A DNA stretch of 64,000 nucleotides from Rhodanobacter sp. OK091. GTDB taxonomy: Bacteria; Pseudomonadota; Gammaproteobacteria; Xanthomonadales; Rhodanobacteraceae. Location of the stretch: NCBI RefSeq assembly GCF_900142825.1, contig NZ_FRCH01000001.1, positions 1,240,001 through 1,304,000 of the forward strand. Reading direction: 5' to 3'. The notes below the pieces were generated by a model, which searched no databases, was not told the origin of the DNA, and saw only the letters and a program-made list of their open reading frames with translations. Shown piece after piece: positions 46,194 to 63,080 of this stretch. Positions within the stretch are counted from its first letter, which is position 1; the number at the start of each line of letters is the position of its first letter. A program made the translations under genes and the position numbers.

Positions 46194-47443
46194 TACTCGA
46201 TCGTCCGCAATCGGGTGCGCAGCTGCTCGGCCGCATCGTTGATTGCCGTATCCAACTCATCGTTGGCGATTTGCTCCAAAAGCGATTCCGTGGATGTCTC
46301 CGACGGTTTACGCTTGCTCAGCACCGCTTGCAGGTTGTCCCGGAGTGTCCCCATGAATGCCGGATCTCCGGCTGCCTGCGCAAAGTAGGCGTCTAGGGAA
46401 GCGATCGCGTCCTGGGCCTCGCCCGTTCCACTCGCCGCCGGCCGCGCGCGCAGATGGAATTCAGTGCCCTCCAGAGTGACCTGATCCTCGAACTGGGCGA
46501 ACAAGCCTTCCATCTCATCCCGTAGCATGGTCTTGGACCGGCACAGCGACGGATGTACCGTCGTGTCAAGACGCAAAACCACACGCATGGCCAAGTGCCG
46601 CCCGTCAGCCCCGTCGCTCGCCGATTCAATGGCCTTTCGCACTTCCCCAACCAAGGCGGCTAGCGTCTGCACCGATGCCGGCACGACCATGTCGAGCAGG
46701 TGGAACCGCAGGACATCCATGGCCACGAATTCTGGCGCACCCAGGTGCCCGTCTTCGATGGGTACGGACACCGCGCCACGTGCACCCAGTTCCTTTATGT
46801 GCAGCCCCTGCAGGTTGCCTGGGAAGACTATGTAAGGGTCTGTCGCAAGCATCTTGTACTGATGCACATGCCCCAACGCCCAATAGTCGTAACCATGCCC
46901 CTTCAGCTGCTCCAGCGTGCACGGCGCGTAGGGCGAATGTGGCGGTGAGCCTGCTAGCGCGGTGTGCAACACCCCGATGTTCACGCAACCGGTTACCGGG
47001 CGTGGGTACGCACTGGCCAAGTTCTCGCGCGTGTCGGCCTGAGCGAAACTCTGGCCATGCAGATGGATGTGCAACGGCTCAAACTCAAACGACTGTGGGG
47101 AGCGCGCCGAAAAGAGCCGTACGTTGTCTGGCGGCACCAACGTCTTGGGCATCGCCGACTCCGCGTCGTGGTTCCCATGCAACAGGTATACCGGCACCCC
47201 GCGTGACCTCAAGCGACCGACCTGTTGATGGAAGAACAGGCCCGTGCTCACGTCCTTCCACGCGCCGTCGTAGACATCGCCGGCCAGGACCAGGAACGCC
47301 GCATCCGACTCGATGACGTAGTCGATCAGGCGGATAAATGCCAGGCGCGGTGCGAGCACAAACGGATGCGTCGCCCGGCCATCCAGTAGCGCTGGCAAGC
47401 TTCGATCCAGGTGAATGTCGGCAGCGTGGACGAAATGCGCCAT
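46193..47443 (-). CDS. YhaO-like (SbcD/Mre11-type) metallophosphoesterase nuclease
   Basis: Calcineurin-like nuclease subunit of 416 residues. Metal-binding motifs occur in order: HAADIHLDRSL (D-x-H), LVLAGDVYDGA (GD-x2-D), YLLHGNHDAES (GNHD), and WALGHVHQYKM (GH-x-H). Residues after about 280 form the capping/partner-binding region. The ATG at 47443 begins MAHFVHAADIHLD; a TTG two codons earlier is possible. It is the partner of the ATPase encoded downstream, and lies divergent from the restriction operon across a 318-base spacer. Confidence 0.87.
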   Translation of the reverse strand: MAHFVHAADIHLDRSLPALLDGRATHPFVLAPRLAFIRLIDYVIESDAAFLVLAGDVYDGAWKDVSTGLFFHQQVGRLRSRGVPVYLLHGNHDAESAMPKTLVPPDNVRLFSARSPQSFEFEPLHIHLHGQSFAQADTRENLASAYPRPVTGCVNIGVLHTALAGSPPHSPYAPCTLEQLKGHGYDYWALGHVHQYKMLATDPYIVFPGNLQGLHIKELGARGAVSVPIEDGHLGAPEFVAMDVLRFHLLDMVVPASVQTLAALVGEVRKAIESASDGADGRHLAMRVVLRLDTTVHPSLCRSKTMLRDEMEGLFAQFEDQVTLEGTEFHLRARPAASGTGEAQDAIASLDAYFAQAAGDPAFMGTLRDNLQAVLSKRKPSETSTESLLEQIANDELDTAINDAAEQLRTRLRTIE

Positions 47444-47761
47444 GGGCAAAGTCTAGTGAGTGTGTGAATCAAGGTAACCCAAGCAAGCACCCGTCGTCAT
47501 GTTGCCCTCTTCCGGTAGCTCGCGGGCAATGTTGCGAACCTCCGCTTTCGGCCGATTCGGAATTGGACAGTGCGTTGGCGACGATAGGCAAAGTGACCAC
47601 TAATTAGGCTGGCGATTGCGTCTAGGCTAGGTCGGCGTCCTGAAGGATGGCGTTTAACAAGTACCCGCAACACCTCAATCGATGGCCGCCGACGAGCGGC
47701 GGTGATGTGCAAGAATGGCCAGACTTGGCAAGCAGCGACCTTCAGGGGCGAAAGCAACAAC
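47444..47761. other. Divergent intergenic region ahead of the restriction-like operon
   Basis: No gene is supported in these 318 bases. A CCGCC/GGCGG hairpin lies at about 47682-47700, and the doublet CTAGGCTAGG at about 47621-47630. Promoters for both divergent operons must be here, but no sigma-70 pair is convincing. The last 60 bases before the ATG contain the ribosome-binding region CAGGGGCGAAAGC. Confidence 0.5.
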
Positions 47762-47971
47762 ATGGCAGGTTCTGACGGTGAAATCCTGACACTCGACGAG
47801 GTTGCCGCCTTCCTGAAGGCCGGCAAACGCACGGTCTATCGGCTCGCTCAGAACGGACAAATTCCCGCGTTCAAGTTGGGTGGGACGTGGCGCTTCCGTC
47901 GCTCAGAACTCGATAGCTGGATCGACGCCAACAGCAATCAGCGCAAACCCATCGGCAAGGCGCAGCGCTGA
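47762..47971 (+). CDS. Excisionase-type HTH DNA-binding protein
   Basis: Small (69-residue) winged-helix protein of the MerR-like excisionase family: ILTLDEVAAFLKAGKRTVYR, then LAQNGQIPAFKLGGTWRFRR and SELDSWIDANS are typical. Such proteins bind DNA as excisionases or as regulators of adjacent genes. The stop TGA overlaps the following helicase start by one base (TGATG). Its position at the head of the operon suggests it regulates the operon; a role in element excision is the alternative. Confidence 0.85.
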   Translation: MAGSDGEILTLDEVAAFLKAGKRTVYRLAQNGQIPAFKLGGTWRFRRSELDSWIDANSNQRKPIGKAQR

Positions 47972-50900
47972 TGGAGATCATCGACAACATCAACCGGCTG
48001 CTCGGTGACGACCTCAAGCAAAGCCTCAAACCGGGGGCCAAGCTCAAAGTCGCCGCATCCTGCTTTTCGATGTACGCCTACGAGGCCTTGAAGGCAGAGC
48101 TGGAGAAGATTGACGAACTGAGCTTTATCTTCACCACGCCTACGTTCGTCGCCGACGAAGTGACCGACAAAATCCGTCGGGAGCGGCGCGAGTTTCAAAT
48201 CTCCAAGCTGGATCGCGAGCGCAGCCTCTACGGCAGCGAGTTCGAGATTCAGTTGCGCAACAAGCTCACTCAGCGCGCTATTGCGAAGGAATGCGCTGAT
48301 TGGCTACTGCGTAAAGCCAGGTTCAAGAGCAACCGCAGCAAGGCTCCGATGCAGCAGTTCGTCTGTGCCCAGTCGATGGGTGCAGACACGGCTTATATGC
48401 CCCTACATGGCTTTACAGCCGTCGACCTGGGTTACCAGCAAGGCAATGCCGTCTCCAACTTCGTCAACAAGATCGACGAGCCGACCCTTACAGCTCAGTA
48501 CTTGAGCCTGTTCGAGCAAATCTGGAACGACCCGGAAAAGCTCGAAGATGTCACCGCGCAGATTTGCGACCAAATCGCCTCGGTGTATCAGGAGAACTCG
48601 CCGGAAAGCATCTACTTCCTGATGCTCTACAACATCTTCAACGAGTTCCTGGACGACATCGACGAAGACGTGCTGCCGAACGACCGCACGGGCTACCAGG
48701 ACACGTTGATCTGGAACAAGCTGTTCAACTACCAGAAAGATGCCGCCACCGGCATCATCAACAAGCTGGAAACGTACAGCGGCTGCATCCTGGCCGACAG
48801 CGTGGGTCTGGGCAAAACCTTCACCGCGCTGGCGGTCATCAAGTACTACGAGCTGCGCAACAAATCCGTGCTGGTTCTCTGCCCCAAGAAGCTGGCGGAC
48901 AACTGGCTCAACTACAACCGCAATCTCAAGACCAACCTCTTTGCCCGTGACCGCTTCAGCTATGAAGTGCTTTGTCACACCGACCTGAGCCGTACCAGCG
49001 GCGAATCGTTCGGCACACCGTTGAACCGCATCAACTGGGGCAACTACGATCTGGTCGTCATCGACGAGTCGCACAACTTCCGCAACAACGATGCCTATAA
49101 GGACAAGGAAACCCGCTACCAGAAGCTGATGAACAAGGTGATCCGGGAGGGCGTAAAGACCAAGGTGCTCATGCTCTCGGCCACACCGGTGAACAACCGA
49201 TTCGCCGACCTGCGCAACCAGCTGGCGCTGGCCTACGAAGGTGATTCGGAAAACCTCAGCAAAAAGCTGCGCACCAGCAAATCGGTCGAGGAAGTCTTCC
49301 GCAACGCCCAGAAAGCCTTCAACACCTGGTCGAAACTGCCGTCAGAAGAACGCACTCCGCGCGCGATCCTGGATGCTCTGGATTTCGATTTCTTCGAGTT
49401 GTTGGACAGCGTGACTATCGCGCGCTCGCGCAAGCATATTCAGACCTTCTACGACACCAAGGACATCGGCCCCTTCCCCGAACGGCGCAAGCCCTTGTCG
49501 TTCCATTGCCCCTTGACCGAGCGGCCGGACGTGATGGGCTTCAATGAGATATTTGAACAGCTGTCCCGACTCAAACTCGCCGTGTACGCCCCTATCAGTT
49601 ACATCCTTCCTAGCCGTCTGAAGAAGTACGAGGAGATGTACGACACCAAGGTCGGCAGCAAGGGCACACTGCGTCAGGTCGACCGTGAGAAGAGCCTGCA
49701 GGCGCTGCTGACGGTGAATCTCCTCAAGCGGCTGGAAAGCTCCGTAGCCTCGTTCCGGCTCACGCTGGAATCCCTGCGCAGGAATCACCAAGGTACGCTG
49801 GCCAAGATCGTAGCCTTCAACCAAACCGGCAGCGCCACCAGCGTGGGTGACCTGACTGACGTGCTGGAAGATCTGGATGCCGAGGACGATGAGCTGGTCG
49901 ATTTGGATGAGAGCGACAACCTCATCGGCGGCAAGGTCAAGATCAGCCTCGCCGATATGGACTTGCCGTCCTGGGAACACGAACTGAAGCTCGATCTAGA
50001 CGTCATCGAGACGCTGCTGGCCTCGATGAACAAGATCACTTCTGACGACGACGCCAAGCTCCAGCATCTGAAAGCGCTTGTGCTGGAAAAGATCGCCCAC
50101 CCGATCAATCCCGGTAACAAGAAGATTCTGATCTTCACCGCCTTCGCCGACACGGCGGACTACCTGTACGCGAATCTGGCTCCCGAACTGCTGACCAGCC
50201 AGCATCTGCACTCGGCCAAGGTCACGGGCAAAGGCACACCCAAGTCCACGTTGGCGAAGGGCTACGACTTCCAGGAACTGCTCACGCTCTTCTCGCCGCG
50301 CGCCAAGGAGAAGGCTGTCGTGATGCCCAATGAACCGGCGGAGGTCGATCTGCTGATCGGCACCGACTGTATTTCTGAAGGCCAGAACCTGCAGGACTGC
50401 GACTACGTCATCAACTACGACATCCACTGGAATCCGGTGCGCATCATCCAGCGCTTCGGTCGCGTGGACCGCATCGGCTCACCCAACAGCAGCATCCAGT
50501 TGGTCAACTACTGGCCCGACATTTCGCTGGACGAATACATCAACCTCAAGGAGCGCGTCGAAAGCCGGATGATGATCGCCGACGTCACCGCCACCGGCGA
50601 CGACAACGTCCTCTCCGCGCAAGCCAACGACGTGTCTTATCGCAAGGAGCAACTACGTCGCCTGCAAGAGGAAGTGATCGAGCTGGAAGACCTGAAGACC
50701 GGCGTCTCCATCACTGACCTCGGCCTCAATGACTTTCGCATGGACCTGCTGAACTACGTCAAGGCCCATGGTGACCTCGACAAGACACCCAACGGCATGC
50801 ACGCCATCGTGCCTGCCAACTTCGATCTGGGGCTGCACCCCGGCGTGATCTTCACCCTGCGTAATCGCAATTCGGCCGTGAACCCGCCCGCCAGCTTGCC

Positions 50901-51258
50901 CCAGCACAACAGGCTTCACCCTTACTACCTCGTCTACATCAATCACGAAGGCGAAGTCATCCACGACCACACCGAGGTAAAGCGCCTGCTCGACCTGGCG
51001 CGAGCCTGCTGCAAAGGCCAGCCGCAGCCCTTCGTGGAGCTGTGCCACCGTTTCAATCAGGAAACGGCGGACGGCCGCAAGATGCAGACCTACTCTGACC
51101 TACTAGGCAAGGCCATTCATTCGATGATCGAGGTCAAGGAAGAAAAGGATCTGGATAGCCTGTTCACTGGCGGCAAGACGACGGCGCTAACGCACACCAT
51201 CTCCGGGCTGGACGACTTCGAGCTGATCGCCTTTCTTGTCGTGCTGAAAGCTGCATGA
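47971..51258 (+). CDS. SNF2-type helicase with PLD-like N-terminal domain
   Basis: Large (1095-residue) superfamily 2 DNA translocase. The N-terminal ~230 residues resemble a phospholipase D-like domain (KVAASCFSMYAYEALKAELE, FVCAQSMGADTAYMPLHGFT, SNFVNKIDEPT), but the HxK-x4-D catalytic motif is degenerate: His at about residue 146 is kept, the Lys is not. Motor motifs follow: Walker A ADSVGLGKTFTAL at about 275-287, DEAH-box LVVIDESHNFRN at about 361-372, LMLSATPVNNRF, and the C-terminal LLIGTDCISEGQNLQDCDYV and IIQRFGRVDRIGS (motifs V-VI). It overlaps the DUF4391 gene in ATGA. It is expected to remodel or translocate DNA in the type III-like locus. Confidence 0.85.
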   Translation: MEIIDNINRLLGDDLKQSLKPGAKLKVAASCFSMYAYEALKAELEKIDELSFIFTTPTFVADEVTDKIRRERREFQISKLDRERSLYGSEFEIQLRNKLTQRAIAKECADWLLRKARFKSNRSKAPMQQFVCAQSMGADTAYMPLHGFTAVDLGYQQGNAVSNFVNKIDEPTLTAQYLSLFEQIWNDPEKLEDVTAQICDQIASVYQENSPESIYFLMLYNIFNEFLDDIDEDVLPNDRTGYQDTLIWNKLFNYQKDAATGIINKLETYSGCILADSVGLGKTFTALAVIKYYELRNKSVLVLCPKKLADNWLNYNRNLKTNLFARDRFSYEVLCHTDLSRTSGESFGTPLNRINWGNYDLVVIDESHNFRNNDAYKDKETRYQKLMNKVIREGVKTKVLMLSATPVNNRFADLRNQLALAYEGDSENLSKKLRTSKSVEEVFRNAQKAFNTWSKLPSEERTPRAILDALDFDFFELLDSVTIARSRKHIQTFYDTKDIGPFPERRKPLSFHCPLTERPDVMGFNEIFEQLSRLKLAVYAPISYILPSRLKKYEEMYDTKVGSKGTLRQVDREKSLQALLTVNLLKRLESSVASFRLTLESLRRNHQGTLAKIVAFNQTGSATSVGDLTDVLEDLDAEDDELVDLDESDNLIGGKVKISLADMDLPSWEHELKLDLDVIETLLASMNKITSDDDAKLQHLKALVLEKIAHPINPGNKKILIFTAFADTADYLYANLAPELLTSQHLHSAKVTGKGTPKSTLAKGYDFQELLTLFSPRAKEKAVVMPNEPAEVDLLIGTDCISEGQNLQDCDYVINYDIHWNPVRIIQRFGRVDRIGSPNSSIQLVNYWPDISLDEYINLKERVESRMMIADVTATGDDNVLSAQANDVSYRKEQLRRLQEEVIELEDLKTGVSITDLGLNDFRMDLLNYVKAHGDLDKTPNGMHAIVPANFDLGLHPGVIFTLRNRNSAVNPPASLPQHNRLHPYYLVYINHEGEVIHDHTEVKRLLDLARACCKGQPQPFVELCHRFNQETADGRKMQTYSDLLGKAIHSMIEVKEEKDLDSLFTGGKTTALTHTISGLDDFELIAFLVVLKAA

Positions 51259-51938
51259 CCCGGCACGTACATACAGCCCTGTTCGCCTATCCCGGCAAGG
51301 CCGCCTTCGGGCGCGTCGTCCCTAAGGCCAAGCTTTACGAACACGGCACAGTCGGCGCCCGTCTCAAAGGCCTGTTCGCCGAACAGGTCGAGCAGATCGT
51401 GTGGCAATACAAGCTGGCACCTGAAACCACCAATTTGTCTGCTTCACCCGGCGCACCGGAGATCCAGGTATTCAGCATGCGGCTCAGGGCGTCGGAGCTT
51501 CACCATGACATCCTGCAGTGCATCGACAAGGCCATTTCGTTTCCCCTCCTGTTCGAGCTGCATTACGAGGATCGTCTTCAAGTTGTCGCCTGCTACAAGC
51601 GCCCCAGCGAAGCCGAGGCCAGCCGCTGGGTATGCTCGGACTATTTCGCTACCGATTGGATTGCAGCGGAGAGCCCACGCGCTGCCCTGCCGGTCGCGCT
51701 GAATCTGGGCGGGCTGTACGAGCAGTTGCTGCATGCGCTGATCCCGCTGACCCATCGCCCGAAAGAGTCGTTGTCCGATCTGGTCGAACGTGTGAGCAAG
51801 GTGCGTATGCTGCGGAAAGAGATGGACAAGGCAGTCTCGCAGCTTGCGACAGAGAGGCAGTTCAATCGTAAGGTGACGATCAACGCTACGGCGCGAGAGC
51901 TAAAGCACAACCTGAAGTTGCTGGAGAGTGGCGAATGA
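51255..51938 (+). CDS. DUF4391 protein
   Basis: A 227-residue protein of the DUF4391 family, found beside SNF2-type helicases in restriction and defence loci. Visible segments are LFAEQVEQIVWQYKLAPETT, EIQVFSMRLRASELHHDILQ and ISFPLLFELHYEDRLQVVAC, with a helical C-terminus (LSDLVERVSKVRMLRKEMDK). No catalytic motif is obvious to me. ATGA overlaps both upstream and downstream place it firmly in the operon, so a structural or regulatory role with the helicase is likely. Confidence 0.8.
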   Translation: MTRHVHTALFAYPGKAAFGRVVPKAKLYEHGTVGARLKGLFAEQVEQIVWQYKLAPETTNLSASPGAPEIQVFSMRLRASELHHDILQCIDKAISFPLLFELHYEDRLQVVACYKRPSEAEASRWVCSDYFATDWIAAESPRAALPVALNLGGLYEQLLHALIPLTHRPKESLSDLVERVSKVRMLRKEMDKAVSQLATERQFNRKVTINATARELKHNLKLLESGE

Positions 51939-54799
51939 GCGAGGCGGAGATGAGCATACCGACCACGGCACGCACATATGACGCCGCCATCCAAAGCCGA
52001 GCCGACGGCAAGTTCATCAGCCGCTTCAAGGAACAGACGCGGATTATGTTCGCCACCAATTACGGCGGGCCGTTTTTCGCGATATCCCGTCTTGCCCCCG
52101 AGATCTACGCCAAGCCAAACGTCAACCTTCTGCTTGCCGACGCCGGCGGCTGGTACGCGGAGGCGGGCGGGCGCTGGCTCACGCTCTACGCCAAGGCACT
52201 ACAGCCAGCGCGCAAGCACACCATCACTGTGTGCTCATCCAGGCGTCCCGAGTACGGTAAGGCTCCCAAGCCAATCCTGTTCCAGCCCCCCCAACAAGTA
52301 CTGCTGAAGAGCTGGGACAAGCATCTGCAGGGCCTGGATACCCTGCCAGATCTCACAGTGCTTCCTGTTCCGGACGATTTCGAGCGTACGGTAGCGCTAG
52401 TGGAGTCGCTGCGCACGATTACCGCCGGCCACAAGGCCCTGATCTCGTGTCATCTCCGTGCCCAGGCGCTCCTCGTGGGCGCGCTATTCCGCGCCTACGG
52501 ATTCGAAACCAGCCCAATTGTTGGATTCGATCTCGCCGACGGCGAACCCCAACATCTAGCGCAGGGCACCTGGTGGTTGTCGGCCATTGTTCCGACGAAG
52601 GAACACGCTACCGAGCCCGCCAAGGAAGTCATTGATGAGCTCGGCCTTACCTTCCACTGTCTGCGAAGCCAGGTCGCTCAAGGGGCGACAAAGGAGGATG
52701 CCGCCCTGGTCGCAGCCACAATTGCCACGCGAGCCACCGTCTCTGTGGAGGGAAAGGACATCCGTGCTGTCCGCATTCCACCGCTTGGTGGCATCGACCT
52801 TGATACGGGGCGATTTTTCAACGTCACCGAAGAAGCCAAAGGCAAACTTCTAGTTTGGGACACGCTGACAACGGGTACTGATCTCTTGACCCAAGCGCCC
52901 GCGGAAGACAAGGACAATTCGGCAGACGAGGATCGCCTCAACCTGATGCTCTGGGTCGCGAAAGTGCTGGCTGAACTCGACAAGCGCGAGCCCGATGAAC
53001 CCGCGATCAGTCCTGCGCTTCAAGGCCCCGACCAAGAAATGGCAGTTGATGGCAAGTCTGACGGGCTCCAAAAGCAACCCGTAGCAGATGGCGCCGTTGA
53101 CGCCGACGCTAAGCACCCTGGCGAAGTTCGATCCGACACCATACCCGCGACGCGTCCGCAGCGACCGCGCCTCTCGCGACACGCTGGCGCCATCAACGTG
53201 CTCGCTCTCGCTGCGCGACTGGGACGCGCTGGGCAGCGCACGGAGAAGACCTTCGACACGACCAGGGCACGCATCCTGCTCTGGCTGAAAAGCAAGGGCT
53301 TCCATGCCACCGATCCGATGGGCAACAACCACATTGAGTCGCTGGACGGCGAGGTGACGATCGAGAGCGATGGCACACGCATCTGGTCGCTGCGCTTCGA
53401 CGACCGCCGGTCCATGGAACAGGGCGCCATCTGGCGCGTGGAAGCAACACTCATCAATGGCGCTCAACCAGCCATGGGCCTGCGCTTGATTCAGGTTCGA
53501 AGCACCGAGGAAGCGCCCCTTCCGGTAGCCAGCGGCGTCCCACAAGTTGTCGCGGACATCGCCAAGGACATCGGCCTGATGGATGCGGGCACCGCCTTAC
53601 TCAACACGGCCACGCATCTGTCCGGCGAGGAAGATGCACCACGTCTTATCCAGCTGCTCCTCAACGCCGAGCGTATCCAGCCCGTCATCGTGATCGCTGG
53701 CGATATCGACGCTTCGGCTGACCGCCTGGCCAGGCGCCTCACCGGCGTGGCCCACATCGTCTGCATCGACACGCCTATCTCGCATCAGCTTGTCCGACGG
53801 CTTGGCCGTGAGCGCTCGGTCTACGGCCATGCCGTGCGTTTGTACCGACCCGGATTCAACGCCGAAGCCGACCCTTACCTGCATCCGGTATGGCCCCTGA
53901 AAACCAACCAGTTGCCCAAGTGGCTGGTCAACGACCTCTTCGAGGAGGCTTGCGCCACCAGTACGGCCGCCGAGGATCTGGACGAACGCGTCCCACCTTT
54001 CCAGGCCATACGCCAACACCTAGCCGCCGAACGCGTCCGCAGCTCGGAAGCGCGACTGGCGACCTTGCGAGAACAGGCCACCCATGCCGCAGCCTCGAAG
54101 GATGAGCAGATCAGCCAACTGCAGGCCATTCGTGAAGAGCTGGAATCTGCACTGGCTGCGCATCGAGCCACGGCCACCGAGTTTGACGCACAGATGGCCG
54201 AGCTGCGGAAGGAACTTCAGGCAACCCGCCGCGAACGCGATGATGCCCGCGAGGAAATTCGCCGGAGCCACTACCAATTCCACGCCCAGTGGAGTGAAAA
54301 CGAAGAGCTAGAAACGGGAGCGGCCGACGAGAGCTATTACCCCGATACCTGGGACGAGCTGGAGGAGTGGGTGGAGATCTACGGCGAGGGCAAGCTCGAA
54401 TTGCACCCCAAGGCCGCCAAAGCCGCGCGCGAGTCGCCCTTCAAGGACATCCCCCTAGCCTACAAAGCGATGGAATACTTGGTGCGCCACTACGTCCCCA
54501 TGCGTACCCGTAGTACGGACGACAACGAGGCCTACCAGCGTAGCAAGCAGGCGCTGGCCGAGCTGGGTCTGGAAGAGTCGGACGTGGGCACCGCAGACGA
54601 GATCAAGCGTTATAAGAAGGAATATCAACGGCAATATGGCGAAAAGATCGTCACATTGGACAGACACCTCAAGCGCGGCGTCGGCTTCGGTGGCGACTTC
54701 CAATTCAGGCTTTACTTCTACTACGACGACAAGTCAGCCAAGGTACTGGTTGGTCACATGCCTACGCACCTGACCAACCGCCTCACCCACAACGGCTGA
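51935..54799 (+). CDS. Large coiled-coil protein of unknown function
   Basis: A 954-residue protein that I do not recognise. Order of parts: an N-terminal ordered region of ~340 residues (RIMFATNYGGPFFAISRLAP); a hydrophilic Asp/Pro-rich linker at about 355-420; a middle domain with RARILLWLKSKGFHATD and RVEATLINGAQPAMGLRLIQ; a region RVYG-type VIVIAGDIDASADRLARRL through SVYGHAVRLYRPGFNAEADP; a coiled coil at about 690-795; and a C-terminal domain ending GFGGDFQFRLYFYYDDKSAK. No ATPase or nuclease motif is obvious. It overlaps DUF4391 in ATGA and precedes the methyltransferase by 44 bases, so it belongs to the same system. Confidence 0.6.
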   Translation: MSEAEMSIPTTARTYDAAIQSRADGKFISRFKEQTRIMFATNYGGPFFAISRLAPEIYAKPNVNLLLADAGGWYAEAGGRWLTLYAKALQPARKHTITVCSSRRPEYGKAPKPILFQPPQQVLLKSWDKHLQGLDTLPDLTVLPVPDDFERTVALVESLRTITAGHKALISCHLRAQALLVGALFRAYGFETSPIVGFDLADGEPQHLAQGTWWLSAIVPTKEHATEPAKEVIDELGLTFHCLRSQVAQGATKEDAALVAATIATRATVSVEGKDIRAVRIPPLGGIDLDTGRFFNVTEEAKGKLLVWDTLTTGTDLLTQAPAEDKDNSADEDRLNLMLWVAKVLAELDKREPDEPAISPALQGPDQEMAVDGKSDGLQKQPVADGAVDADAKHPGEVRSDTIPATRPQRPRLSRHAGAINVLALAARLGRAGQRTEKTFDTTRARILLWLKSKGFHATDPMGNNHIESLDGEVTIESDGTRIWSLRFDDRRSMEQGAIWRVEATLINGAQPAMGLRLIQVRSTEEAPLPVASGVPQVVADIAKDIGLMDAGTALLNTATHLSGEEDAPRLIQLLLNAERIQPVIVIAGDIDASADRLARRLTGVAHIVCIDTPISHQLVRRLGRERSVYGHAVRLYRPGFNAEADPYLHPVWPLKTNQLPKWLVNDLFEEACATSTAAEDLDERVPPFQAIRQHLAAERVRSSEARLATLREQATHAAASKDEQISQLQAIREELESALAAHRATATEFDAQMAELRKELQATRRERDDAREEIRRSHYQFHAQWSENEELETGAADESYYPDTWDELEEWVEIYGEGKLELHPKAAKAARESPFKDIPLAYKAMEYLVRHYVPMRTRSTDDNEAYQRSKQALAELGLEESDVGTADEIKRYKKEYQRQYGEKIVTLDRHLKRGVGFGGDFQFRLYFYYDDKSAKVLVGHMPTHLTNRLTHNG

Positions 54800-54843
54800 C
54801 GTTATTGACGGCGGCCAAAAGCAACAACGCAAATGGAACACAC

Positions 54844-56805
54844 ATGGACAAACTGAAGATGCACTCGCCCGACCTCAGCCAGGACAACATCGCGCGGGTA
54901 CGCGCGCTGTTCCCGGACTGCGTGACCGAGGCCAAGGGCGCGGATGGCGGCGTGCGGCTGGCGGTTGACTTCGACCAGCTCAGGCAGACCTTGTCCGAAT
55001 CGCTGGTGGAAGGGCCGCAGGAGCGCTACCAGCTCAACTGGCCGGGCAAGCGCGAGGCGCTTCTAACGGCGAATGCACCGATTGCCAAGACCCTGCGGCC
55101 TTGCCGCGAGGAGAGTGTGGACTTCGACACAACGAAGAACCTGTTTATCGAGGGCGACAATCTGGAGGCGCTCAAGCTGCTGCAGGAGACGTATCTGGGC
55201 AAGATCAAGATGATCTATATCGACCCGCCCTATAACACGGGTAACGACTTTATCTACAGGGACGATTTCAGCAGCGACAGCTCGAACTACATGCAGCAGT
55301 CCGAGCAGGCGGATTCTGAGGGCGGGCGACTGGTTGCGAACACTGAAGCAAATGGTCGCTTCCACTCAGATTGGTTGAGCATGATTTTTTCGAGGCTGAG
55401 GCTTGCGCGCAACCTTCTGTGCGCCGAGGGCGCCATCCTCATCTCGATTGACGACAACGAGGTGGACAACCTACGAAAAGTCTGCAATGAAGTTTTCGGC
55501 GAGGAGAATTTCGTCGCCCAAGTCGTCTGGCAGCGCTCCAAGAAAGGCGACTCAAAACTCATTGCCAAAGTGCATGAATACGTTCTGTGCTATGTCCGCG
55601 ACAAGCAAGCGGTGCTTGCGAATGGACACTGGCGTCGTCCGAAGGAAGGAGCTGACCAGGTTCTCGCCAAGTACGCCGAATTTAGGGAACAGCTTAAGAA
55701 CAATCACGAAGCCATTCGCACTGAAATGCAAGCTTGGTACAAGCAACTGCCGAATGGCGACCCACGAAAGGCCCACAAACACTACAACTGGTCGGATGAT
55801 CGCGGCCTCTACTTTGCCGCAGACTTCGCGGGCCCAGACGATGGACGCGAATCCAGGCCGCGACATGACATTTTTCATCCTGTCACTGGCAAATCATGCA
55901 AAAAGCCATCGACCGGATGGCGGTGGGATGAAGAGAAGACGAAATGGGCACTAGCCCAAAATCCTCCGCGAATCCACTTTGGCTCTGACGAAACCACGAT
56001 TCCCAACCGCAAGAGCTATCTGTTCGAAATCGACAGCGAGCCCTACTCTTCCGTGTTCTACCGAGATGGTCGTTCCGCGACGCTTGAGGTTGAAGAGCTT
56101 GTCGGCAAAGGCTGGTTTCCGTTCCCAAAGAACACTGACGTGTTAACTGAATTGATCGAACTGGTAACCAAGCCTGACGACATCATCCTGGACTTCTTTG
56201 CCGGCTCCGGGAGCACCGGACACGCGGTCATGAAAGTTAACATGACCCATGGCTCTAAGCGGCGGTTCGTGCTTGCTCAGATTCCCGAAGCAACCGGTCG
56301 GACTGGGTACAGCACCATTGCCGAGATTACCAAGGAGCGACTGCGGAAGGCCGGAATGAAAATAGCCGAGAACCGAAGCATCGCTAATCTCGATACCGGC
56401 TTCCGCGTCCTCAAGATCGACACCTCCAACATGGCCGACGTGTACTACACGCCAGACACCATGACCCAGGAAGGTCTGTTCGCAGCGGTGGACAACATCA
56501 AGCCCGAACGCAGCGCCTTCGACCTGTTGTTCCAGGTGATGCTTGACTGGGGTGTGGACCTGGCCCTGCCCATCGAGAAGAAGGTGATTCAGGGCAAGGA
56601 CACGTACTTGGTGGACGGCAACGCACTGGCCGCTTGTTTTGATAACGCGGGCGGTATCGACGACGCCTTCGCGAAGGAGCTGGCCACGAACCAGCCGCTG
56701 CGCGCCGTATTCCGGGATGCCGGTTTCAAGGACAGCACGGTGAAGATCAACATCGAACAGATCTTCAAGCTGCTGTCGCCCGCCACCGAAGTGAAGTGCC
56801 TGTGA
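54844..56805 (+). CDS. Type III-like DNA adenine methyltransferase (Mod)
   Basis: Site-specific DNA methyltransferase of the type III Mod type (653 residues), expected to recognise the target and methylate adenine. The catalytic motif IV is MIYIDPPYNTGNDFIYRDDF (DPPY), at about residues 118-137. The SAM-binding motif I (IILDFFAGSGSTGHAVM) lies near the C-terminal side, an order seen in beta-class enzymes. The central region (about 210-400) should be target recognition. The ATG at 54844, opening MDKLKMHSPDLSQDNIARVR, is the common family start; a TTG 39 bases upstream is not needed. It is followed at 9 bases by the AlbA_2 gene. Confidence 0.92.
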   Translation: MDKLKMHSPDLSQDNIARVRALFPDCVTEAKGADGGVRLAVDFDQLRQTLSESLVEGPQERYQLNWPGKREALLTANAPIAKTLRPCREESVDFDTTKNLFIEGDNLEALKLLQETYLGKIKMIYIDPPYNTGNDFIYRDDFSSDSSNYMQQSEQADSEGGRLVANTEANGRFHSDWLSMIFSRLRLARNLLCAEGAILISIDDNEVDNLRKVCNEVFGEENFVAQVVWQRSKKGDSKLIAKVHEYVLCYVRDKQAVLANGHWRRPKEGADQVLAKYAEFREQLKNNHEAIRTEMQAWYKQLPNGDPRKAHKHYNWSDDRGLYFAADFAGPDDGRESRPRHDIFHPVTGKSCKKPSTGWRWDEEKTKWALAQNPPRIHFGSDETTIPNRKSYLFEIDSEPYSSVFYRDGRSATLEVEELVGKGWFPFPKNTDVLTELIELVTKPDDIILDFFAGSGSTGHAVMKVNMTHGSKRRFVLAQIPEATGRTGYSTIAEITKERLRKAGMKIAENRSIANLDTGFRVLKIDTSNMADVYYTPDTMTQEGLFAAVDNIKPERSAFDLLFQVMLDWGVDLALPIEKKVIQGKDTYLVDGNALAACFDNAGGIDDAFAKELATNQPLRAVFRDAGFKDSTVKINIEQIFKLLSPATEVKCL

Positions 56806-56814
56806 GGTGGTGTC

Positions 56815-58473
56815 ATGGAGCATGTTGAACTAACGCGATTGCTGGACGGCCTGATCGCCACCTGGGAAAACGAGGTGGCGGAGTTCAAGCAGGCCAACGA
56901 CAACTTCAGCACCGACGACATCGGCAAGTATTTCTCCGCGTTGGCCAACGAGGCTAATTTGCGCGGAGCCGACTTCGGCTGGCTGGTATTTGGTGTGAAC
57001 AATCAAAGTCGCTCTGTCGTCGGCACCACATACCGGCAAGAGGCTGAGCGCCTGCACCAGTTGAAGATGCAGATCACCCAGAACACTGATCCTCGCCTGA
57101 CCTTCCGCGACATCCACGAGCTCCAGCACACCGACGGTCGCGTCTTGTTGTTCCAGATTCCGGCTGCGCCCCGCGGCATTGCCATTTCGTGGAAGGGGCA
57201 CTACTACGCTCGCGCTGGGGAAAGCCTGGTCTCTTTGGGCCTGGACAAGTTGGACGAAATCCGCAACCAGACCCTTACATTGGACTGGACGGCTCAGTTC
57301 GTTACTACGGCAACGCTGGACGACCTGGACGAAGCTGCCGTGCGCAAGGCGCGCGAATCCTTCGCCCAGAAGCACGCCAACAGCTTCGCCCCGGAAGACG
57401 TTGCAAAGTGGCCGCTGGAAACCTTCCTCGACCGTGCGCGTGTCACCCGGGATGGCCAAATCACCCGCACCACCTTGCTCTTGCTGGGCAAGGCCGAATC
57501 GGCCCACCACCTCTCGCCCCACCCTGCACAACTGACGTGGAACCTGGTCGGACAGGAGCGCGCCTACGAGCACTTCGGCCCGCCCTTCCTGCTGAGCAGC
57601 ACACGCCTGTACCAGCGCATTCGCAATATTCAGCTGCGCATCCTGCCGCAAGACGAACTGGTGCCAGTGGAAGTGGCCAAGTACGACCAGAAGATCGTGC
57701 TGGAATCCCTGCACAACTGCATCGCGCATCAGGACTACGCCCGCAACGGGCGTGTAGTAGTCACGGAGCTGCCGGACCGGCTGGTGTTCGAGAACGAAGG
57801 CGCGTTCTTTGAAGGGCAACCAGGCGACTACATCGACGGCACCCGTACCCCCCGACGTTATCGCAACCCTTTTCTCGCCCAGGCGATGGCCGAGCTGAAC
57901 ATGATCGACACCATGGGCTACGGCATCCACGACATGTACGTACGCCAGGCAAAGCGCTATTTCCCGATGCCTGACTACGACCTTGGCGACACCGCGGCCG
58001 TGAAGATGACGATCTACGGTGGCGTGGTCGACCCGGCTTACAGCCGCCTGCTGATCCAGCGTACCGATCTGTCACTGGCCGACGTGCTGGCGCTGGATCG
58101 GGTGCAGAAGAAACTGCCGATCCCAGACGAGGCCGCTGCACGCCTGCGCAAGGGTGGGCTGATCGAGGGCCGCAAGCCGAAGTACTTCGTTTCAGCCGAG
58201 GTTGCCAAGGCAACCGCAAGCGTCGCCGATTACATCCGCACGCGCGCCCAGGACGACGACTATTACGCCAAGCTCATTACCGACTACCTGACGTTGAAGG
58301 GCTCAGCGAGCCGCGCCGAAATCAACAAGCTACTGATGGACAAGCTGAGCGACGCGTTGAACGACAAGCAGAAGGACAACAAGATCGCCAACCTACTGAC
58401 CAACCTGCGACGCAAGGGGCGTATCCGCAACACCGGCAGCCGTGGGCACCCGGTATGGCTGCTTGCAGAATGA
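56815..58473 (+). CDS. AlbA_2/Schlafen-like ATP-binding protein
   Basis: A 552-residue protein with an N-terminal AlbA_2 (Schlafen-type) domain: NEVAEFKQANDNFSTDDIGK and FGWLVFGVNNQS, then SWKGHYYARAGESLVSLGLD. The middle resembles the ATP-binding domain often fused to it (LESLHNCIAHQDYARNGRVV, LVFENEGAFFEGQPGDYIDG and MGYGIHDMYVRQAKRYFPMP). The C-terminus holds winged-helix-like segments with LLTNLRRKGRIRNTGSRGHP. These proteins are often annotated as transcriptional regulators or RNA/DNA binding. Sitting between mod and res, it may control the restriction step. Confidence 0.85.
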   Translation: MEHVELTRLLDGLIATWENEVAEFKQANDNFSTDDIGKYFSALANEANLRGADFGWLVFGVNNQSRSVVGTTYRQEAERLHQLKMQITQNTDPRLTFRDIHELQHTDGRVLLFQIPAAPRGIAISWKGHYYARAGESLVSLGLDKLDEIRNQTLTLDWTAQFVTTATLDDLDEAAVRKARESFAQKHANSFAPEDVAKWPLETFLDRARVTRDGQITRTTLLLLGKAESAHHLSPHPAQLTWNLVGQERAYEHFGPPFLLSSTRLYQRIRNIQLRILPQDELVPVEVAKYDQKIVLESLHNCIAHQDYARNGRVVVTELPDRLVFENEGAFFEGQPGDYIDGTRTPRRYRNPFLAQAMAELNMIDTMGYGIHDMYVRQAKRYFPMPDYDLGDTAAVKMTIYGGVVDPAYSRLLIQRTDLSLADVLALDRVQKKLPIPDEAAARLRKGGLIEGRKPKYFVSAEVAKATASVADYIRTRAQDDDYYAKLITDYLTLKGSASRAEINKLLMDKLSDALNDKQKDNKIANLLTNLRRKGRIRNTGSRGHPVWLLAE

Positions 58474-58520
58474 TAGCGCGTGTCGCTCACACAGAACTGC
58501 TTATAGATCAATTACTTACT

Positions 58521-58560
58521 CCTTTCTGCAAGTAGAGCTTGCAGAAGCCTTGCAGAAAGG
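58521..58560. promoter_or_regulatory. Perfect 12-bp inverted repeat upstream of res
   Basis: CCTTTCTGCAAG (58521-58532) is exactly inverted as CTTGCAGAAAGG (58549-58560). The CTTGCAGA core recurs at 58538 and also at the very end of the preceding gene (58461). It ends 18 bases before the res ATG, in the only sizeable gap (105 bases) of the operon, so an operator or attenuator that controls res is plausible. Confidence 0.6.
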
Positions 58561-58578
58561 AACGCTCGCAGGAACACC

Positions 58579-61500
58579 ATGAAGCTCAAGTTCAAAATCC
58601 AGCCCTATCAGACCGCCGCCGTGCAGGCGGTGGTGGACTGTTTTGCCGGCCAGCCACCTGCCAGCGCCCGCGCTGTGAGCTACCGCATCGACCCGGGCAA
58701 GCAGACCAAGGGCCAGACCATCGGCAGCACCGTGGGCGGCGGCGATGGCTTCAGGAATGCCGACTTGCTGCTGACCGATCAGGCCCTACTTGAGAACGTC
58801 CAGAAGGTGCAGCACAGCCAGAACCTCAGCGCATCCACGGCGCTCACCAAGACCAAGGTCTCAGCGGTGAATCTCGACATCGAGATGGAAACCGGCACCG
58901 GCAAGACCTACTGCTACATCAAGACCGTTTTCGAGCTGAACCGACAGTTCGGCTGGAGCAAGTTCGTCATCGTGGTGCCCTCCATCGCCATCCGCGAGGG
59001 CGTTGCCAAGTCACTGGCGATCACCGCCGACCACTTCCAGGAAACCTACAGCAAGAAGGTCCGGTTCTTCATCTACAACTCCAAGCAGCTGCACCAGTTG
59101 GAGAGCTTTTCGTCGGATGCCGGCATCAACGTGATGGTCATCAACGTGCAGGCCTTCAACGCCACCGGCAAGGACAACCGACGCATCTACGAGGAGCTGG
59201 ACGATTTCCAGTCACGCAAGCCCATCGACGTCATCAGCGCCAACCGGCCCATTCTGATTCTGGACGAACCACAGAAGATGGAAGGTGCGGCGACGCTCAA
59301 GTCACTGGAGGCGTTCAAGGCCTTGATGGTGCTGCGCTACTCAGCCACCCACAAGACCCGCCATAACCAGGTGCATCGTCTCGACGCGCTGGATGCCTAT
59401 AACCAGAAGCTGGTGAAGAAGATCGCGGTGCGCGGCATCACCATGAAAGGGCTGACCGGCACGAATGCCTATCTGTACCTGCAGTCCATCGAGGTTTCGA
59501 GCAAGAAGCCACCTGAAGCCCGCGTGGAGTTCGAGCAGAAGCTCGCCGGCGGCAAGATCAAGCGCACGATGCGCAAGCTGAAGAAGAGCGACAACCTGTT
59601 CACGCTCTCCGACGAGCTGGACCAATACCGCCAGGGCTTCGTCGTCTCCGACATCAACGCCAACACCGACACCCTTAGCTTCACCAACGGCGTGGAACTG
59701 ACCGTGGGCGATGCGACGGGCGACGTGAACGAGGCCATGCTGCGCCGCATCCAGATCCGCGAGGCAATCAAGGCGCACTTCGACAAGGAACAGGCCTTGT
59801 TCTCGCAGGACGTAAAGGTGCTGAGCCTGTTCTTCATCGACGAGGTGGCGAAGTATCGCGACTACACCGTGGCCGACACCAAAGGCGAATACGCGCGCAT
59901 CTTCGAAGAGGAATACCAGCTGTATTTGAACGAGGTACTCGGGCTGGAGGAAACGCCCTGGAGCAAGTACCTCAAGGGCATCGCAACGGAGAAGACCCAC
60001 AGCGGCTACTTCTCCATCGACAAGAAGACCAAGCACCTCACCGACCCCACCGTGGCGAAGCGCGGCGAGAATGCGGGTCAGTCCGACGATGTAGACGCCT
60101 ACGACCTGATCCTCAAGGACAAGGAGCGCCTGCTGTCGCTCACCGAGCCGGTACGCTTCATCTTCTCGCACTCCGCGCTGCGCGAAGGCTGGGACAACCC
60201 CAACGTATTCGTGATCTGCGCCCTCAAGCACAGCGACAACACCGTCTCGCGCCGCCAGGAAGTGGGTCGAGGACTGCGCCTCGCCGTGAACCAGCAAGGC
60301 GATCGCATGGACAACCCGGTCACCGTCCACGACATCAACCTGCTCACCGTAGTGGCCAGCGAGAGCTACAAGGATTTCGTAGCCGGTTTGCAGGAGGACA
60401 TGACCAAGGCGCTGTCCGAGCGCCCGCGCAAGGCTGATGAGCGCTACTTCGCCGGCAAGGTGCTCAAGACCGAACAGGGCGAGGTATCCGTCACGCCGGC
60501 CATGGCGAAGCAGATCTACAAGTACCTGCTCAAGAACGATTACACCGACGACAACGACAGCATCACGAACGTATACCACCAGGCTAAAAAAGATGGTGCC
60601 TTGGCCGAACTGCCAGCAGAGCTGCGTCCGTACGAGGCACAGGTCGTCATGCTGATCGACAGTGTCTTCAGCGCAGCGCAACTGCCCGACATCGACGATG
60701 GCCGCAAGCCTAAGCGCAATCCGCTCAACGCAAATTTCGACAAGCAGGAGTTCAAGGCGCTATGGAACCGCATCAACCGCAAGGCGGCCTACAGCGTGCA
60801 TTTCGACAGCGATGAGCTGGTGAAGAAGGCCGTGAGCACGATCAACGATCGGGCCGACAGTGTCGGCCTGCGGGTGACACCGCTGCAATACGTGATCGTC
60901 AGTGGTGAGCAGGAAGACGCGGTGGATCGTGACCAGCTCGAAAGCGGAAAGAGTTTCCGCGTCGGCGAGAGCGTGGTCGAGAATCATCGTGCCTCTGTCC
61001 ATTCCGACGTGCGTTACGACCTGATCGGCAAGCTCGCCGAAGGAACCAAGCTCACCCGGCGCACGGTGGCCGATATCCTCAAGGGAATGAACACCGCGGT
61101 CTTCGCGCAGTACAGGCTCAACCCTGAGAGTTTCATCGCCGAGGCCATCCGGCTCATCAACGAGCAGAAGGCCACCATGATCGTTGAGCACCTGGCTTAC
61201 GACCCGGTGGAGGAACGCTACGACACGGACATCTTCACGGCCGGGATGACCAAGCAGGACTTCACCCACGCTGGTGACAAGCTCAAGCACCACATCTACG
61301 ACTACGTGCTGACCGACTCGAAGGTCGAACGTGACTTCGTCACCGAGCTGGACACCAGCAGCGACGTGGTCGTCTACGCCAAGCTGCCGCGTGGCTTCCT
61401 GATCCCCACCCCGGTAGGCGACTACAACCCCGACTGGGCCATCAGCTTCAAGGAAGGCCAAGTCAAGCATGTCTACTTCGTGGCGGAAACCAAGGGTTCC

Positions 61501-61650
61501 ATGTCCAAGATGGAATTGCGCCAGATCGAGGAGACCAAGATCGAGTGCGCCAGCAAGTTCTTCGACGAAATGAACCGGCGATACGCACCCCAGAACGTCA
61601 AGTACGAGGTGGTGGACAGCTTCAGCAAACTGATGGAGATGGTGAAGTGA
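58579..61650 (+). CDS. Type III-like restriction endonuclease subunit (Res)
   Basis: ATP-dependent DNA translocase/nuclease subunit of 1023 residues, partner of Mod. Helicase motifs: [20 protein letters not shown] (Walker A-like GTGKT, about residue 98), [20 protein letters not shown] (DEPQ motif II), the [20 protein letters not shown] region, and [20 protein letters not shown] (motif VI). The C-terminal PD-(D/E)xK nuclease is visible as [20 protein letters not shown] then AETKGS, with Asp, Glu and Lys in place. Together with Mod it should form a type III restriction complex. Its expression may be controlled by the inverted repeat upstream. A 20-base spacer leads to the next gene. Confidence 0.92.
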
Positions 61651-61670
61651 CAACGAACAAGGAATGCACC

Positions 61671-63080
61671 ATGTACAAGCCCCGCTTCGACTTCGGCAAA
61701 GAGTTCGATCCCAGCGGAGAACAAACGGGAACCGTCAAAGACCTGCTCGAAGAGCTCAACTACGAGAAATTCAAGACAGCTGCAGGCACCCACGCAGAGC
61801 GAGGTAACTCGAATGGGACATCAGTTACTTTCGATTCGCTAAGCGGCGTGTTCGAATTCCTGAACGATGTCACCGGCATGAGCCAGCCCAAACTCGCCCA
61901 AGACATCCCTCTATCGACGCTGAAGACCGTCAAGCTTCTTTACGTCACAAACGACACCAACGACACACAGCTGTTCAGACTACTCAAGTCACCGCTTCGT
62001 GGGGGCAAGCCATCGCTGGAGTTCTATACCACCGAAACACCTTCGAGAAATCAGAAGGGCATCGCCATCGTCGATCACCTGCTATCGACCTTGAGCATAG
62101 AGGTTGATCCAGCCGTACTGCGCAGGATAAATATTTCGTTCCTGACCTATCCAAAGCTGCTCGAATGCATAGCACAGGAGAATCTCGAAATTCTCGAACC
62201 TATCTACGAAAGGCATCACGGACAGTCAGCGTCGATAGCTAAAGCCATCGCCCATCTCGCTGAGGCAGTCAAGCATTACAAGCCGATGCCCCATCGGTCA
62301 GACCGTCCGCTGCCTGAAGCCTTATACACGTATCTGCGCATCCTCCCATTTCTAAATTTCGTTGGTGAGTATCAAGAAGTCATCGAACTATCACGCGTCG
62401 GGAATCAGGTCGATCCGATTTTGGACAAGATCGATAATTTCTGCAGCGAACTTTCTATTGCCATGCAGTCGGAAGTTCATCACAACACACCGATAACTTC
62501 CGTGGAAGGATTCCCTGCCTTTGTCGATAGCAACTCTCTGGCATTAGCCAAACTGGTGCAACATGCAACCGGCATCGCCAGTGAAAGAAGAGACATTCTG
62601 AAAATCGTCAATGCATCCAGCAAGGTTCTCTGCTCATACGTCCATCATGAGTGGGGCATCATTTCACTGGATACGAAGAACATCACAGTGGTCGACTGTA
62701 TCGCCACCCTTTGCACCATTCGGCACCAGCAGAAGGTGAAGACAAACTATTCCGCCTACTGGCTGGGCCAAGAACAGTCCGACAAGGGTACCAGCGTGCT
62801 ACGTCAGATGGATGATGCCAGGAGTTCCGAGGAACTTTTCGAGCACGACTACATACCACATGGCATCAACCAGCTGTTGTTCAGTCGCTTCAATCAATTC
62901 CACATGGCAATCACCGGGAAAACCGGGCGCTACTCGGCGTGGATGGAATTACAGCTGGCTCGATTGACAAAATATGCTGAGTGCTATCAATCCAATGACG
63001 TTTCTATTTGCGACGATGCTGTTCAGCGCTTCTACAAATATTGCACGCGAGAAGCAATCAAAGCAGCAGACATCGCGTGA
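61671..63080 (+). CDS. Hypothetical 469-residue protein, AT-richer than its neighbours
   Basis: I recognise no family. The ATG at 61671 follows AAGGAA, 20 bases after the res stop. The protein is soluble-looking and rich in helices, with segments such as VFEFLNDVTGMSQPKLAQDI, YTYLRILPFLNFVGEYQEVI and SYVHHEWGIISLDTKNITVV. It has few motifs of catalytic type. The DNA is visibly richer in A and T than mod or res, suggesting a different history. It may be an accessory gene of the restriction operon or cargo of the mobile element. Confidence 0.7.
   Translation: MYKPRFDFGKEFDPSGEQTGTVKDLLEELNYEKFKTAAGTHAERGNSNGTSVTFDSLSGVFEFLNDVTGMSQPKLAQDIPLSTLKTVKLLYVTNDTNDTQLFRLLKSPLRGGKPSLEFYTTETPSRNQKGIAIVDHLLSTLSIEVDPAVLRRINISFLTYPKLLECIAQENLEILEPIYERHHGQSASIAKAIAHLAEAVKHYKPMPHRSDRPLPEALYTYLRILPFLNFVGEYQEVIELSRVGNQVDPILDKIDNFCSELSIAMQSEVHHNTPITSVEGFPAFVDSNSLALAKLVQHATGIASERRDILKIVNASSKVLCSYVHHEWGIISLDTKNITVVDCIATLCTIRHQQKVKTNYSAYWLGQEQSDKGTSVLRQMDDARSSEELFEHDYIPHGINQLLFSRFNQFHMAITGKTGRYSAWMELQLARLTKYAECYQSNDVSICDDAVQRFYKYCTREAIKAADIA

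Follow-up and report, generated by a model that had tools for sequence, protein, structure and literature searches.

Type III restriction-modification (R-M) enzymes are textbook two-subunit, two-site R-M enzymes, typified by cleavage some distance away from the site, a requirement for two inversely oriented sites, and methylation of one strand. In the relevant parts of one account (PMC4490356), the EcoP15I enzyme is composed of Mod and Res, and a two-site rule is given for type III enzymes. Here, an operon of Rhodanobacter sp. OK091 is described that joins homologues of both subunits to an SNF2-type helicase and a DUF4391 protein. It occupies positions 47,762 to 61,650 of a 64,000-nucleotide stretch of contig NZ_FRCH01000001.1 (positions 1,240,001 to 1,304,000; the whole stretch is hereafter the window, and its numbering is used for the operon). 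The SNF2, DUF4391, Mod, and Res genes are a conserved core; the genes for a 954-aa protein, an AlbA_2 protein, and a helix-turn-helix (HTH) regulator are variable. With a probability of roughly 0.6, the core represents one ATP-dependent R-M machine, in which DUF4391 tethers an SNF2 motor to a type III Mod/Res enzyme. The core genes and their parts discussed below are as follows:

47971..51258, + strand: core gene 1, SNF2-type helicase/translocase with an N-terminal degenerate PLD domain (SNF2-rel_dom and Helicase_C; PADLOC family C3a139, 'HKD+Snf2', 416.7 bits)
47971..48705, + strand: degenerate PLD (HKD) domain of the helicase, with approximate borders (alignment with sister proteins)
51255..51938, + strand: core gene 2, DUF4391 protein (PF14335, 1.9e-56, 192 bits against a cut-off of 29.9)
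54844..56805, + strand: core gene 3, Mod, N6/N4-type methyltransferase of the EcoP15I type (PF01555, 1.1e-31; MTase_III, 748 bits; DPPY motif)
55200..56399, + strand: recognition region of Mod, replaced between two Rhodanobacter operons (DNA identity per 200-base block)
58579..61650, + strand: core gene 4, Res, SF2 ATPase with a C-terminal PD-(D/E)xK endonuclease (PF19778, 6.1e-34; ResIII; REase_III, 1106.6 bits)

All seven genes of the operon lie on the + strand, in the order and with the spacing reported in the first-pass annotation of this DNA (overlaps of 1, 4, and 4 bases, and a gap of 105 bases between the AlbA_2 gene and Res). A chance arrangement is excluded because the SNF2-DUF4391-Mod-Res order is conserved in other phyla. 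The mod frame is open from a TTG at 54805, and comparison with relatives suggests that translation probably starts at the ATG at 54844. A scan of 47400-62400 found no sigma-70-like promoter; such a scan is uninformative for this organism.

Conservation of the four-gene core

The four genes occur in the order SNF2-DUF4391-Mod-Res on one strand in 54 of 73 distinct DUF4391 loci, counted after removal of four exact duplicates including the window itself, whose DUF4391 is identical to that of the same-genus locus L052 (the same stretch as Rhodanobacter sp. MP7CTX1). Another 14 of the 73 loci are cut by contig ends and five depart from the core, i.e., the complete ordered core is present in 54 of the 59 loci not set aside as contig-end-cut. 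Three of the departing loci (L101, L104, and L111) have an interrupted mod, a fourth (L131) has a different gene order, with the last part of a Res gene immediately before SNF2, and the fifth (L036) is considered below with the points against our interpretation. The permuted variant L131 (1-6496, + strand) has the Res gene end (RE_endonuc) upstream of its SNF2-DUF4391 pair and a gene for a 684-aa Piwi-domain protein directly downstream.

DUF4391 was detected in 23 of 398 genomes sampled from the phylum and, among 100 relatives, in three (both sets count the genome of the window), and a Res homologue occurs in 22 of the 23, counted anywhere in the genome and not by neighbourhood. The SNF2 protein has matches (E ≤ 1e-30) in 22 of the 398 phylum genomes, 20 of which adjoin DUF4391; the two others are a protein of another system (G071, 40% identity) and a partial match at 31%. 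In 48 of 72 loci, the SNF2 gene runs 1-4 bases into the DUF4391 gene. The family hidden Markov models (HMMs) were derived from the very loci that were counted; in an HMM-independent check, 10 of 10 divergent DUF4391 genes (including those of Listeria, Enterococcus, Leuconostoc, and an Erysipelothrix phage) scored above the Pfam cut-off. With Res in 22 of 23 DUF4391 genomes and the whole core in 54 of 59 uncut loci, the suggestion of the first-pass annotation that the helicase and DUF4391 are true partners of Mod and Res is borne out.

The core was found in Pseudomonadota, Bacillota, and Actinomycetota, on plasmids, and in one phage. Protein relatives of the helicase occur in 102 PLSDB plasmid records (Listeria, Enterococcus, Escherichia, Acinetobacter, and others), DNA relatives in 87 of 5426 E. 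coli genomes, and further relatives in five phage records; a part of these plasmid, E. coli, and phage records was examined for gene context. All 11 named records examined have the core: Listeria, Enterococcus, Mycolicibacterium, E. coli (two chromosomes and one plasmid), Enterobacter, an Erysipelothrix phage, Leuconostoc, Acinetobacter, and Photobacterium. The annotation of the Listeria plasmid splits mod in two, and an IS30 element interrupts mod in one E. coli chromosome. DUF4391 is labelled as hypothetical in the Listeria and Enterococcus records, yet both genes score 35 bits against the Pfam cut-off of 29.9.

These counts bear on whether two or more separate defence systems simply lie side by side, which we consider very unlikely for the core. 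Such an explanation does hold for HEC-07 (the family of the 954-aa protein) and AlbA_2, which are variable or found elsewhere, and lone Mod/Res operons exist. However, the core is present in 54 of 59 uncut loci, four of the five exceptions are an interrupted mod (three) or an upstream Res end (L131), with L036 unexplained, and the four genes are bound together by gene overlaps and by the correlated distances described below, by which a side-by-side arrangement is largely refuted for the core.

A degenerate PLD domain beside intact motor motifs

Among 75 distinct full-length helicases that were aligned, none of the 66 DUF4391-linked proteins, that of the window included, has the PLD signature HxK...GSxN, and the lost columns have no common replacement. 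The signature is kept in 5 of 5 sister-group helicases, and the four other proteins (three at contig ends and that of the viral locus L122) also lack it. The motor motifs are intact (Walker A in 68/68, motif VI in 68/68, and DESH in 67/68); counts for motor, Mod, and Res motifs were not de-duplicated, and those for the PLD motif and core order were. By its active-site motif the SNF2 protein does not belong to the PLD/HKD nucleases, and its first-pass description as 'SNF2/PLD-like' is right in the SNF2 part and is corrected to a degenerate PLD domain in the other. Within the core, Res is the sole nuclease recognised as intact, because the PLD motifs are lost and Res keeps PD...ETK. With the PLD decayed and Res intact, the nuclease role appears, from these motifs, to have moved from the PLD to Res.

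It is highly improbable that the helicase is itself an active nuclease effector acting through a PLD with an altered active site, and this candidate was dropped. The name of the PADLOC family, 'HKD+Snf2', and the retention of the domain, although degenerate, would fit such an effector, but HxK and GSxN are lost in all 66 proteins and their columns show nothing common in exchange. The second activity that the earlier annotation had envisaged for the operon is likewise not upheld in the form of nuclease action by the helicase. The prefix 'C3a' of the PADLOC family may stand for CRISPR type III accessory cluster. Second in rank among the PADLOC families matched by the helicase is DrmD (110 bits), and relatives of the helicase in the PDB include the SNF2 remodeller RapA. 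An apparent SNF2-DUF4391 fusion in locus L116 was rejected, as its C-terminal extension has no DUF4391 match.

Mod, Res, and sequence specificity

Among proteins of solved structure, Mod and Res are closest to the subunits of EcoP15I (8.3e-76 and 3.1e-76, respectively). Mod is an N6/N4 methylase with DPPY and FxG motifs, and Res combines an SF2 ATPase with a C-terminal PD-(D/E)xK domain, as in type III R-M enzymes. DPPY is present in 63 of 63 Mod proteins and PD...ETK in 58 of 59 Res proteins (one is truncated), and the Res motifs overall are found in 58-59 of 59.

Between the window and MP7CTX1, most 200-base blocks are 100% identical and the rest of the operon is 88-100% identical, whereas identity at 55.2-56.4 kb, the recognition region of Mod, is 30-64% per 200-base block. 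Two blocks of 97.4-98.5% DNA identity flank this break inside mod. A second divergent tract (47600-50000, 90-98% per 200-base block) covers the regulator and the N-terminal half of the helicase. In 14 of 15 close pairs of loci (the pairs share sequences, and one further pair was left out), the middle of Mod is 23-46% identical, a value that in four pairs takes in the C-terminal part of Mod; SNF2 is 76-99%, Res 73-100%, and DUF4391 56-100% identical. The middle of Mod is conserved in the exceptional pair L087/L090. Mod probably sets specificity alone, because the two Rhodanobacter operons differ mainly in its recognition region, and Mod would then be the one protein that reads the site.

Several loci show rearrangements of mod. 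In L095, L128, and L061, two mod genes are present in tandem or close together. In L034 and L079, a transposase gene interrupts mod and the SNF2, DUF4391, and Res genes are still open, which is consistent with Res activity depending on Mod. The viral contigs L101 (=L174), L104, L111, and L112 (=L180) have mod interrupted at the same codon, directly before the PPY of DPPY (..IYI[D/E]|), with one mod piece only in each record and large serine recombinases (Pfam Resolvase and Recombinase) near the cut in three of the four. In a further scan of 29 loci with a mod N-terminus, 2 are cut (L174 and L180) and 27 are intact. The cut looks like prophage integration into the active-site codons of the methylase, of which a single search of the open-licence literature listed no plain description.

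Two loci have a different SNF2 gene directly upstream of Mod-Res and no DUF4391: a DrmD-type helicase (657 bits) in L066 (9068-11998, - strand) and another non-core SNF2 in L059 (11412-14261, - strand). Type III systems may therefore have recruited SNF2 motors more than once.

Co-divergence of the core proteins

Across 45 loci, protein distances of SNF2 and Res correlate with r = 0.96 and those of SNF2 and DUF4391 with r = 0.93. Partial correlations are 0.56 for DUF4391-SNF2, 0.68 for SNF2-Res, and 0.50 for Mod-Res, and -0.07 to 0.16 for the other three pairs, forming a chain DUF4391-SNF2-Res-Mod. Neighbourhood does not explain the SNF2-Res link because the two genes lie at opposite ends of the operon.

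DUF4391 and its sister systems

An AlphaFold2 model of the DUF4391 protein of the window is confident, with a predicted local distance difference test (pLDDT) score of 95. It has no match among solved (PDB) or viral (BFVD) structures at E ≤ 0.001, the sequence has no PDB relative at E below 0.07, and assignment of a function from structure was dropped on account of these results. In L055, L123, L125, and L130, and partly in L126, the gene after that of an SNF2-PLD protein, 38-40% identical to the core helicase, encodes a type IIG-like Eco57I/TaqI_C methylase of 1200-1358 aa, and a RecF-like ATPase comes next wherever the available sequence is long enough; the methylase is frame-broken in L055 and cut by the contig end in L126, and a KilA-N gene lies in between in L125. 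The N-terminus of this methylase resembles Pfam DUF4391 in 5 of 5 cases (E 9e-5 to 6e-3), and hhalign aligns the two over 127 columns with a probability of 90% (E 1.8e-6). From the model of the methylase N-terminus only the order of secondary-structure elements was used, which in the aligned stretch is the same as in DUF4391 (strand-strand-helix-strand-strand-strand-helix). These sequence and model comparisons suggest a Rosetta-stone link, with the DUF4391-like part fused to the methylase in the sister system and separate in the core, and DUF4391 may accordingly link the SNF2 motor to the methylase.

Proposed mechanism

In the proposed machine, Mod would be the specificity subunit that recognises the site and carries out the predicted N6-adenine methylation, and Res would cut unmethylated DNA. 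The SNF2 protein would bind duplex DNA and translocate, but, given the loss of the nuclease motifs from its PLD, it has probably ceased to cut. DUF4391 would act as an adaptor coupling the motor to the methylase/nuclease complex, and the motor would most likely carry this complex along DNA, or clear bound protein, enabling Res to fire. HEC-07, AlbA_2, and the HTH gene would remain outside the machine. Homology to R-M enzymes, the cargo genes, and the island and plasmid context suggest that the system may serve in defence against phages. A further-reaching version, which we put forward as tentative and rather doubtful, is that the SNF2 protein tethered by DUF4391 takes over long-range communication, such that a single unmethylated site suffices in place of two inversely oriented ones, and that the system evolved from (or gave rise to) the SNF2-PLD/type IIG-like systems by transfer of the nuclease role from PLD to Res.

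Several observations weigh against a single machine. In L036, DUF4391 lies at the contig start with a Zeta-like gene next to it and no Mod/Res in 9.6 kb, and L131 departs from the usual gene order. Res relatives occur in 44 of the 398 genomes, 22 of which lack DUF4391 (contexts were viewed in 16 of these 22, and several end at contig borders). Lone Mod-Res operons are nested within the family (L058, L060, L063, and L057, the last with a mod fragment only), and the viral locus L122 (4860-12114, + strand) has an HNH-domain gene, a core-type SNF2 gene, and Res one after another but neither Mod nor DUF4391. The partial correlations favour SNF2 and Res, which are long, low-noise proteins. Lastly, the matches of the sister methylase N-terminus to DUF4391 are all below the Pfam cut-off (17-23 bits against 29.9), and the model of this N-terminus is weak (pLDDT 63, four sequences).

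The first-pass annotation had held that the helicase, DUF4391, and the large protein would be a separate system if they were found mostly without Mod/Res, or the reverse. The helicase-DUF4391 pair is rarely apart from Mod/Res and is therefore not a separate system by that measure; the reverse does not hold, given the 22 of 44 Res genomes without DUF4391. The loci were found through SNF2 or DUF4391, and the frequency of Mod/Res without the pair rests only on the Res search. A Res tree (FastTree, 71 rows) has at least five changes between presence and absence of the SNF2/DUF4391 pair. The nested lone Mod-Res operons lie inside the family and therefore read as losses of the pair; others (L067, L069, and L070) are placed deeper or outside.

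Absence of the pair from several Mod/Res lineages would also be expected if SNF2-DUF4391 were a regulatory or counter-counter-defence add-on not needed for cleavage, one that remodels or strips proteins (DNA-mimic inhibitors, nucleoid proteins, or stuck Mod/Res) or restrains Res against self-cutting. The remodeller RapA among the relatives of the SNF2 protein and the dead nuclease motifs of the helicase point in the same direction. On the other hand, DUF4391 hardly ever occurs without Mod/Res, and the joint divergence of SNF2 and Res suggests more than an optional helper. We regard such an add-on as possible but unlikely and prefer the reading of the core as one R-M machine.

Variable genes and insertion slots

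The other genes of the operon are:

47762..47971, + strand: small HTH_17/excisionase-like regulator (MAD1-like), variable and non-core (PF12728, 2e-18); the frame is open from a GTG at 47702
51935..54799, + strand: slot A cargo, 954-aa protein with a C-terminal 530 aa of the HEC-07 family (PADLOC HEC-07, 1.8e-94)
56815..58473, + strand: slot B cargo, Schlafen/AlbA_2 and HATPase_c_4 protein (PF04326, 5.3e-18; PF13749, 5.2e-11)

A gap of at least 350 bases is present between DUF4391 and Mod in 18 of the 54 cores, between Mod and Res in 18, and at either position in 27. Contents were identified in about half of the loci with wide gaps and comprise a Zeta-like toxin, Fic, RhuM, GmrSD, DUF2130, an OLD-like nuclease, a UvrD-like helicase, a weakly SMC-like protein, AlbA_2, and HEC-07. 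In the 954-aa protein, which had been called unknown, residues 421-951 belong to HEC-07 (315.7 bits, PADLOC models that leave out the N-terminal 420 aa), with weak coiled-coil-type matches near 690-790, and no PDB relative of HEC-07 was found. The family is present in 10 of 398 genomes and lies within this operon only in the window's own genome and the same-genus locus L052. Among the other nine genomes, eight were examined and none has the core around HEC-07 (one, L155, is at a contig end); its neighbour in L154 is another type III methylase, distinct from Mod of the core. Full-length relatives of the AlbA_2 protein occur in 4 of the 54 cores. Neither protein is thus one of the 'four additional conserved partners' of Mod and Res proposed initially. 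Of 77 helicase loci whose upstream sequence extends to 600 bases or more (a set that takes in sister loci and near-duplicates), 16 have a MAD1-like regulator ahead of SNF2.

HEC-07, AlbA_2, and the HTH gene are exchangeable; each would be a module for backup defence or for control, and two of the three occupy insertion slots. The abbreviation HEC is spelled out as Hma-embedded candidate in the relevant section of PMC12988326, and parts of this source and of PMC12255303 describe defence genes embedded in operons for R-M and other defence systems, including DarTG2 inside a type I R-M operon (PMC12255303).

Genomic setting

A complete-looking Gabija pair (GajA, 968 bits; GajB, 807 bits) is located about 9 kb downstream of the operon (L170 9556-13052; G000:C2 ~1310.6-1314.1 kb), together with MobA/MobL, YqaJ, DUF932, and a phage-type integrase. 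Based on Gabija, MobA/MobL, and the integrase, the operon is probably part of a mobile defence island. On the other side, the operon is adjoined by a divergent pair of genes (42744-47449, - strand) for SbcC/Rad50-like (1149 aa) and SbcD/Mre11-like (418 aa) proteins with weak LmuB and mad3 matches.

Comparison with known systems

No description of the four-gene system was found in the open-licence literature (subscription papers and bioRxiv were outside its scope), and an earlier description is possible; in the open-licence PMC literature DUF4391 was met only as a table entry in one paper. The core would represent a widespread branch of type III systems that has acquired an additional motor and a protein whose fold was not matched, bearing an evolutionary trace of a nuclease hand-over. 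It gives DUF4391 a testable function, offers a natural test case for the two-site rule, and marks two slots where further defence genes may be sought.

DISARM is defined by DrmA and DrmB with a methylase, and also includes the helicase DrmD, the PLD protein DrmC, and the methylases DrmMI/II. The operon resembles it in having an SNF2 helicase and a methylase, with DrmD as the second-best family of the helicase. It differs in that the best family is C3a139 (417 bits), and DISARM was rejected because DrmA or DrmB is the best PADLOC family of no operon protein. MADS is defined by the regulator MAD1 with other mad genes; the regulator of the operon scores 79.3 bits against the NCBIfam MAD1 cut-off of 80, no other mad family is among the operon-protein matches listed, and MADS was rejected as well.

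Hma consists of the helicase HmaA, the 5-methylcytosine methylase HmaB, and the ATPase HmaC, as outlined in part of PMC8565338. Membership in Hma was rejected, as the helicase scores 82.5 bits against HmaA and 416.7 against C3a139, the methylase is of type III, and HmaB and HmaC are not among the matches listed. The BREX-related Type-2 BR system, in the portion of PMC12839542 that describes it, has an N-terminal HKD nuclease on an SNF2 helicase, an N6-methyltransferase, and a DUF499 ATPase, and no type III Res. Its HKD-SNF2 protein and N6-methyltransferase are shared with the sister loci of the core (same portion of PMC12839542), whereas the DUF499 ATPase and the lack of a type III Res set it apart, and the HKD motif of the window helicase is lost. 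BREX membership was dropped, as the defining genes were not found. The slots resemble the Hma-embedded candidates and DarTG2 in type I R-M, as far as the cited parts of those sources describe them, in that unrelated defence or toxin genes lie between the subunits of a defence operon; the host here is a type III-like core with two slots.

The sister SNF2-PLD/type IIG-like loci are similar to the core in their helicase (~40% identical) and in the DUF4391-like N-terminus of their methylase, but they have an intact PLD, the DUF4391-like domain is fused to the methylase, and no core Mod/Res lies beside them. With EcoP15I and other type III enzymes (Mod2Res1), the core shares a homologous Mod and Res with the catalytic motifs kept, and it differs from them in that the operon of the window also holds the SNF2 and DUF4391 genes.

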